A stretch of 64,000 nt of DNA from Opitutia bacterium ISCC 52 (GTDB lineage Bacteria; Verrucomicrobiota; Verrucomicrobiia; Opitutales; UBA2995), in NCBI GenBank assembly GCA_014529675.2, contig CP076040.1, positions 4,049,894-4,113,893 on the forward strand, read 5' to 3'. A program made the translations under genes and the position numbers. Positions 24,209 through 25,579 of the stretch are shown here, one piece after another. The first letter of the stretch is position 1; each line of letters opens with the position of its first letter. The notes under the pieces are model-generated. The model did not search any database, was not told where the DNA came from, and was given only the letters and a program-made list of their open reading frames with translations.

Positions 24209-24715
24209 TTAATCGTGGTGATGACCGTGATCATGACCGCATCCGTCCCCATGATGCACATGCTTGTGACTGATCTCCTCTGGCGTGGCAGGTCGCACGG
24301 AAACGACTCTTACCTCAAAGTTCAGGACCTTCCCTGCTAGCTCGTGATTGGCATCAATCGTTACCTTGTCGCCCTCAACCCCATTGACGGTAAACATACG
24401 AATACCGCCCGCTACTTCTCCCTGGAATCGCAAACCGGGCCTTAGCTCCATGTCTTGTGGAAACTGACTACGAGCCACTTCGCCAATCAATTCAGGACTT
24501 CTTTCACCATAAGCATGTTCAGGTTGCAGCGTTACGGTGAACTCATCTCCTTCTGATTTCCCAGTCAAGGTGCGCTCCAGGCCTTTCACAATCGCCTCCA
24601 CACCCATCAAGAAAACAAACGGATCTTCCTCCGTGCTCTTATCGAGTACTTCTCCTACATCTCCTTTTAAAGTGTAGGCAATACCTACCACCGACTTGGA
24701 ATCTATTAATTGCAT
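24209..24715 (-). CDS. FKBP-type peptidyl-prolyl isomerase, SlyD-like
   Basis: A 168-residue SlyD-type prolyl isomerase and chaperone. The ATG at 24715 (MQLIDSKSVVGIAYTLKG) is chosen; the longer frame to 24970 runs through the regulatory region and is not coding. Typical parts are GVEAIVKGLERTLTGKSEGDEF, here split around Leu-Glu, PEHAYGERSPELI, the IF-domain region and VDANHELAGKVLNFEVRVV. The C-terminus HKHVHHGDGCGHDHGHHHD is rich in His and Cys and likely binds nickel or zinc, as in SlyD. It is divergent from a TetR-family regulator, with two palindromic operators between, so it is probably controlled by that regulator. Confidence 0.9.
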   Translation of the reverse strand: MQLIDSKSVVGIAYTLKGDVGEVLDKSTEEDPFVFLMGVEAIVKGLERTLTGKSEGDEFTVTLQPEHAYGERSPELIGEVARSQFPQDMELRPGLRFQGEVAGGIRMFTVNGVEGDKVTIDANHELAGKVLNFEVRVVSVRPATPEEISHKHVHHGDGCGHDHGHHHD

Positions 24716-24785
24716 CGGCTTATCCTTCGAAGAAAGGCCCAAAATACGACACTTTTCTGTTGATAAGTTAATCTCGTGGCCTAAT

Positions 24786-24826
24786 ATTAACACTGTTAAC
24801 ATAAACATATTGTTAACAGTGTTAAT
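24786..24826. promoter_or_regulatory. Tandem palindromic operators between slyD-like and tetR genes
   Basis: Two 13 bp perfect palindromes, TTAACACTGTTAA at 24787-24799 and TTAACAGTGTTAA at 24813-24825, lie with centres 26 bp apart. Together they form a larger perfect inverted repeat with 16-base arms (24786-24801 and 24811-24826) around a 9-base spacer. They sit in the 234 bp gap between the SlyD-like gene and the divergent TetR regulator and are the best candidates for the binding sites of that regulator. Confidence 0.75.
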
Positions 24827-24949
24827 TTTATATCTCGACAATCCTTCGTGTCGCTCGTTCCCTAAGATTGTCCAGAAGGGCAATGCATTGAAACGACCTG
24901 ACTCAAAAACAATTGGAGCCAGTTTGAGTTTTGAATCCATTCGATAAAC

Positions 24950-25579
24950 ATGCGCGCAAAATTTCATCATGGAGATTTAAGAAACGCTCTCATACAGAGT
25001 GGCTTACAGATCCTCGCTCAAGAAAGCATTCAAGGCCTCTCTCTGCGCAAAGTAGCCAAGTCGGCCGGTGTTAGCGAAGCCGCACCTTATCGTCATTTTA
25101 AAGACAAAGAAGCCCTATTAGCAGCCATCGCAGAACAAGGCTTTATCCGACTGTCTGAGCGTCTGGAAACAGCGGAAGAGCAATTCTCGGATCAAGCGGC
25201 TAAGCTTTTCTACCTATCATGTAGAACCTACATTGATTTCGCATTGGAGAATCCGCACTCCATGCGGATGATGTTTAGGTTCCGATCCTCTGAAGGTTTA
25301 TCGGACTATCCTGACCTGCAAGATGCAGCCGACGAGTCATTCAGCTACTTAATCGATATGGTTGAGTACTGCCAGCAGGAAGGCCTGGCACGATCGGGAC
25401 ATCCCCTACCCCTTGCCTTGGCCGCATGGTCAACGATTCATGGACTTTCCATGCTTCTCATTGAAGGGTGCATTTCCCCTGATGTATTTCATGAAAACAG
25501 TCAGGAAAGCATGATCAGAGCAACGCTTGATACCATCCTCGCCGGCTGGCAACACCGTCCCCTTATACCCAATGCATAG
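24950..25579 (+). CDS. TetR/AcrR family transcriptional regulator
   Basis: A 209-residue TetR-family repressor. The N-terminal helix-turn-helix reads FHHGDLRNALIQSGLQILAQ, then LSLRKVAKSAGVSEAAPYRHF and KDKEALLAAIAEQGF. The HHGDLR opening and AAPYRHF recognition helix are typical of the TetR group with the C-terminal WHG domain; here the C-terminal part has AWSTIHGLSMLLIEG, which carries a WxxxHG signature. The ligand is unknown. The tandem palindromes upstream of its start suggest autoregulation and control of the divergent SlyD-like gene. Confidence 0.9.
   Translation: MRAKFHHGDLRNALIQSGLQILAQESIQGLSLRKVAKSAGVSEAAPYRHFKDKEALLAAIAEQGFIRLSERLETAEEQFSDQAAKLFYLSCRTYIDFALENPHSMRMMFRFRSSEGLSDYPDLQDAADESFSYLIDMVEYCQQEGLARSGHPLPLALAAWSTIHGLSMLLIEGCISPDVFHENSQESMIRATLDTILAGWQHRPLIPNA

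Follow-up and report, generated by a model that had tools for sequence, protein, structure and literature searches.

What role do two palindromes play between a divergently transcribed foldase gene and a TetR-family regulator gene, and which of the two genes do they serve? The arrangement lies in the stretch of 64,000 nucleotides of Opitutia bacterium ISCC 52 that was analyzed here (the window). We consider it probable that the adjacent TetR has its operator in this pair, through which it would repress the divergent tetR and slyD genes until a ligand binds. The features concerned are as follows.

24209-24715, minus strand: slyD-type FKBP peptidyl-prolyl isomerase with a His-rich tail, 168 aa, ATG start at 24715
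24760-24787, plus strand: candidate tetR promoter TTGATA-16-TAATAT, a consensus match; the last base of its second hexamer is the first base of operator 1
24786-24826, no strand: inverted repeat made by operators 1 and 2, 16-base arms, 9-base loop
24787-24799, no strand: predicted operator 1, 13-mer TTAACACTGTTAA, 17-mer form TATTAACACTGTTAACA
24798-24825, minus strand: candidate slyD promoter TTAACA-16-TATGTT, a consensus match; the first hexamer lies in operator 2, the second shares two bases with operator 1
24813-24825, no strand: predicted operator 2, 13-mer TTAACAGTGTTAA, 17-mer form TGTTAACAGTGTTAATT
24950-25579, plus strand: TetR-family regulator, 209 aa, TetR_N and TetR_C_33

The sites and their genes

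The slyD start is preceded by a Shine-Dalgarno-like AAGGAT, and the product carries an FKBP domain (FKBP_C, PF00254; 42.3 bits, cut-off 21.1) and a tail, HKHVHHGDGCGHDHGHHHD, that is His-rich by reading of the sequence. These are also the features of E. coli SlyD (PRK10737), but the window protein scored below the NCBIfam PRK10737 equivalog cut-off (107.9 versus 174 bits), and its naming was therefore kept to "slyD-type." The regulator has the helix-turn-helix domain TetR_N (PF00440; 43.1 bits, cut-off 24) and the C-terminal ligand domain TetR_C_33 (PF13305; 58.4 bits, cut-off 26.8). Among the named NCBIfam TetR types (FabR, AcrR, MtrR, etc.), 20 families matched it and none above its curated cut-off, the best being FabR with 48.2 against 151 bits; the closest solved structure by sequence is 3on2, a "Probable transcriptional regulator." The locus is not an efflux-pump divergon, since the divergent gene encodes FKBP_C and not a transporter. 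Because the neighbor converging on slyD is a DUF1294 gene and that converging on tetR a TM7S3_TM198 gene, both slyD and tetR appear to be monocistronic. An ABM-domain gene (antibiotic biosynthesis monooxygenase) lies downstream of tetR in G005, a genome of the same genus (L011 2440-2766), and none is present between tetR and the TM7S3_TM198 gene in the window.

The first-pass annotation had described two perfect palindromes, 26 bp apart, forming a 16-base-arm inverted repeat between slyD-like and tetR genes, and this description stood with small refinements. Both 13-mers are present and palindromic save for the central base, which is flanked by perfect 6-bp arms; operator 1 is the reverse complement of operator 2, and the arms of the repeat (24786-24801 and 24811-24826) match exactly around the 9-base loop. 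The distance of 26 bp is correct from centre to centre, the gap between the operators being 13 bp. Both lie inside the 234-bp intergenic gap, with slyD (minus) and tetR (plus) diverging on either side. DNA has ~10.5 bp per helical turn, so that centres 26 bp apart are separated by ~2.5 turns, which would place two dimers, which may or may not bind cooperatively as the first-pass annotation suggested, on roughly opposite faces.

Five promoter-like consensus matches were found in 24600-25050, where 0.7 were expected, and both candidate promoters are among them. We favor a layout in which operator 1 would lie at the tetR -10 hexamer and at the edge of the slyD -10 hexamer with the start region, and operator 2 at the slyD -35 hexamer.

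Conservation within the genus and the order

The operator pair was kept at the identical 26-bp spacing in two other genomes of the genus, G007 and G005. Both 13-mers of G007 are identical to those of the window (26/26 positions), compared with 6/13 positions in the spacer, 55/71 in the flank on the slyD side, 72/110 on the tetR side, and 13/14 in the final stretch before tetR. The sites of G005, whose TetR is 63% identical, are TTAACAACGTTAA and TTAACGCTGTTCA. Mismatches of sites 1 and 2 to the wide consensus TGTNNACNNNGTNNACA number one and two in the window, one and three in G007, two and zero in G005, and one and zero in G003; under a rule that allows no more than one mismatch, only one of the two sites would count in the window, in G007, and in G005. 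That palindromic sites near tetR are present and conserved makes them well-supported predicted operators of TetR.

The slyD start is separated from operator 1 by 71, 71, and 70 bp in the window, G007, and G005, and the tetR start from operator 2 by 124, 124, and 19 bp. With the slyD distance near-constant and the tetR distance variable, the sites look tied to slyD, a regularity based on two lineages (G000, the genome of the window, with G007, and G005). The slyD/tetR gap is 234 bp in the window versus 128 bp in G005; the segment that runs from operator 2 to tetR (24826-24949) is 105 bp longer in the window and G007 than in G005. This tetR leader is single-copy in the genome. A small minus-strand frame within it was rejected as a gene, as the differences between G000 and G007 are spread evenly over codon positions (11, 13, 13). 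Separately, three genomes of the genus share an identical TTTTCTGTTGATA (24753-24765), which may be the tetR -35 region or part of the slyD leader.

The tetR gene of G003 has no frame open throughout and has decayed, yet its slyD is open (L013 1400-1640) with two overlapping operator-like sites 9 bp apart, 33 bp from the slyD start; this counts against the operator reading. A search at 1e-15 gave no slyD in G001, G002, G004, and G006, of which G004 is 75% and G006 88% complete; the G006 contig ends inside tetR. Of the 273 genomes of the order, 127 gave a slyD match at 1e-15 and seven a match to this TetR at 1e-12, four of the seven belonging to the genus; the other three (G060, G201, and G247) have the TetR gene on contigs different from those with slyD. 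Among the order genomes examined, the TetR-slyD pairing is found only in this genus. Upstream stretches of slyD were read at 26 loci out of 123 matching non-genus genomes (L142 with only 129 bp), and in 25 of the 26 there was no site with fewer than three mismatches to either search pattern; L145 has a lone site, one mismatch from TTAACNNNGTTAA, upstream of a non-genus slyD.

These data bear on whether slyD is regulated at all, since TetR might bind the sites for self-regulation only, with slyD as a passive neighbor. According to a study of Streptomyces (PMC3511530), divergent TetR regulators with gaps <200 bp repressed the neighbor in all five cases tested, whereas with gaps >200 bp three of four had no action on it and one activated it. 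The window resembles that set in that its regulator is local and faces away from a gene that does not encode a transporter, but its gap of 234 bp exceeds the 200-bp limit and so counts against slyD control; the gap in G005 falls below the limit. A passive slyD would also fit the distribution in the order, where the gene usually manages without this TetR, and its retention in G003 beside a broken tetR. On the other hand, the sites hold their distance to slyD and not to tetR, the candidate slyD promoter overlaps both operators, and the short gap of G005 speaks for control. We therefore regard self-regulation alone as unlikely, and slyD as a likely second target of TetR besides tetR.

The motif elsewhere in the genome and at related tetR genes

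The first-pass annotation had held that many copies of the sites across the genome would speak against a specific target. Exact TTAACANTGTTAA occurs at two places in the 4,815,747-bp single-contig genome, both in the operator pair, and at one mismatch there are six further places. Since these eight places compare with 11 for the reversed control pattern, the motif is without genome-wide enrichment and the pair stands alone. The looser TTAACNNNGTTAA, with up to one mismatch, was likewise not enriched (87 places versus 211 for the control); its two further exact places, L006 and L008, are each within reading frames. As for a wider regulon, 23 other exact or near matches were read in context, comprising six one-mismatch TTAACANTGTTAA, five one-mismatch TTAACNNNGTTAA, and eight and four from other scans, and thus covering a minority of the 87 TTAACNNNGTTAA places. 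On a map of mechanical reading frames none was in promoter position: 21 were within open reading frames and two (L003 and L102) between converging frames, and a regulon was rejected. Exact TTAACNNNGTTAA was found at 30 places in seven other genomes of the family, compared with 70 for the reversed control; of three non-slyD places read, two were within frames and one was intergenic in G005.

The motif recurs at related tetR genes beyond the genus. The 80 loci compared were found with peptide seeds, including YRHFKDKE of the DNA-binding domain, which biases the set towards the same recognition region; homologous loci among them are not independent, and some tetR starts are approximate, set at where the match began. 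L096 and L097 were left out of the comparisons. Because the consensus TGTNNACNNNGTNNACA was read from 47 loci and then counted on all 80, the count is not blind and is controlled by scrambled patterns. Ten loci carry exact TGTNNACNNNGTNNACA ≤300 bp upstream of tetR, with 14 copies in all, and the remaining 589,864 bp contain none. When one mismatch is allowed, 44 copies lie upstream (25 loci) versus 20 elsewhere, a density ratio of 54.8, while the two scrambled controls gave 0 versus 0 for exact copies and 1 versus 20 and 1 versus 22 with up to one mismatch. Exact TTAACANTGTTAA occurred in four of the 80 loci (Clostridia, Eubacterium by title), upstream of tetR in all four. Of 47 upstream regions, 11 held palindromes with the AC-NNN-GT core, where shuffles averaged 0.65 (largest 3), and none held those with three other cores or two other gaps; palindromes of the same gap with any core were not significantly frequent (24/47; shuffle mean 16.25, largest 24).

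Site number clusters on a tree of 50 rows (L059, L061, and most of L063-L094 left out), with none of 200 shuffles as low; the three genus rows were assigned to the two-site group by hand, the rule giving one site for the window and G005 and no score for L015, whose contig starts at tetR. Pairs are frequent, at least two sites being present in 17 of the 47 non-genus rows, which speaks for the operator reading. No site was found in 23; this absence, together with the single site that the rule gives the genus genomes, counts against the operator reading. Eight Gammaproteobacteria loci space their sites at 21-22 bp, two Vibrio loci at 37 bp, six others at 9-43 bp, and one at 203 bp. The Gammaproteobacteria clade (L018, L020, L024, L025, L028, L029, L030, and L031) has two or three sites 21 bp apart (22 and 21 in L031), and the neighbors of its tetR, where read (all of these except L030), are HlyD/RND-type.

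Relatives of this TetR adjoin transporter, membrane, or enzyme genes. By Pfam, the divergent neighbors include HlyD (L018), MMPL (L021), MMPL with LolA_like (L017), FMN_red (L034), ABA4-like (L016), 4HBT (L036), and DUF2867 (L022); two Vibrio neighbors had no Pfam match, and those of L020, L025, L028, and L031 are HlyD-like by reading. The window TetR is 35-41% identical to the regulators that stand opposite HlyD/RND genes in L018, L020, L025, L028, and L031, where operator-like sites of TGTNNACNNNGTNNACA form, counted at no more than one mismatch, are present two or three times. Those loci differ from the window in site spacing (21-22 versus 26 bp) and in the divergent gene (HlyD/RND, assigned by Pfam for L018 and by reading for the others, versus slyD).

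The sites might instead be bound by a regulator encoded elsewhere, an idea to which their retention in G003 despite the broken tetR lends some weight. We judge this very unlikely, because the motif goes with related tetR genes of several phyla, mostly just upstream of them, and none of the genome matches read in context is in promoter position. Least probable of all is an RNA hairpin (terminator or leader): the repeat folds at -20.3 kcal/mol (z -7.6; other strand -19.3) and that of G007 at -18.0 (z -5.1), but it sits between divergent genes, and G005, while retaining a palindrome at both positions and their spacing, has a weaker long hairpin (-9.4, z -1.8). With the pair conserved, the motif present at related tetR genes, and no other full match in the genome, the first-pass view of a specific regulator target is borne out as a predicted target of the neighboring TetR.

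The proposed switch and its signal

A repressor that sits over both sites and shuts both genes is the classical TetR arrangement. In the switch that we propose, one TetR dimer would occupy each site, and bound TetR would block both divergent promoters, repressing slyD as well as tetR itself (autorepression). A small molecule would then bind the TetR_C_33 domain, as its family suggests, and the repressor would leave the DNA, so that the SlyD folding helper would be made along with fresh repressor. While the sites, their uniqueness, conservation, spacing, and distance to slyD, and the motif common to related tetR genes are read from the DNA, we infer the binding, repression, and ligand release.

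The Tn10-type tetR/tetA locus is a divergent operon with two operators between regulator and target. The window has the same divergent plan with two operators between, but its target is a foldase in place of an efflux pump, and operator sequence and spacing differ. As a local switch, the proposed TetR operator pair is of an ordinary type, and what is unusual is the target gene. In Gammaproteobacteria, relatives of this TetR face HlyD/RND-type genes, and in this Opitutales genus one such regulator has apparently ended up next to slyD. It is conceivable, though we advance it tentatively, that a TetR of the pump-facing kind was captured there, with slyD its only target besides itself and a chemical signal inducing the folding helper, and that a broad TetR_C_33 subfamily is marked by tandem TGTNNACNNNGTNNACA, the spacing of which differs by clade (21, 26, and 37 bp).

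The open PMC papers searched gave nothing relevant on TetR with TTAACA or the 13-mers, on a TetR-slyD pairing (including Opitut), or on TGTCAACA with TetR and RND. With this locus, a TetR_C_33 subfamily represented in several phyla gains a specific, testable predicted operator. A prolyl isomerase also seems to be under the control of a TetR repressor here; if true, a small-molecule signal would be tied to protein folding capacity through a compact single-target switch.

Which signal might be sensed? E. coli SlyD is linked to hydrogenase. Unlike that system, the window genome gave no match to PF00374 ([NiFe] hydrogenase), and 26 other SlyD tails of the order are likewise His- or Cys-rich by eye, so that the window tail is not special; the metal signal raised in the first-pass annotation is thus unsupported. 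The toxic compound that it named as the other option is plausible, and the kinship of this TetR to regulators beside transporters suggests that a hydrophobic compound is a likelier ligand than a metal.
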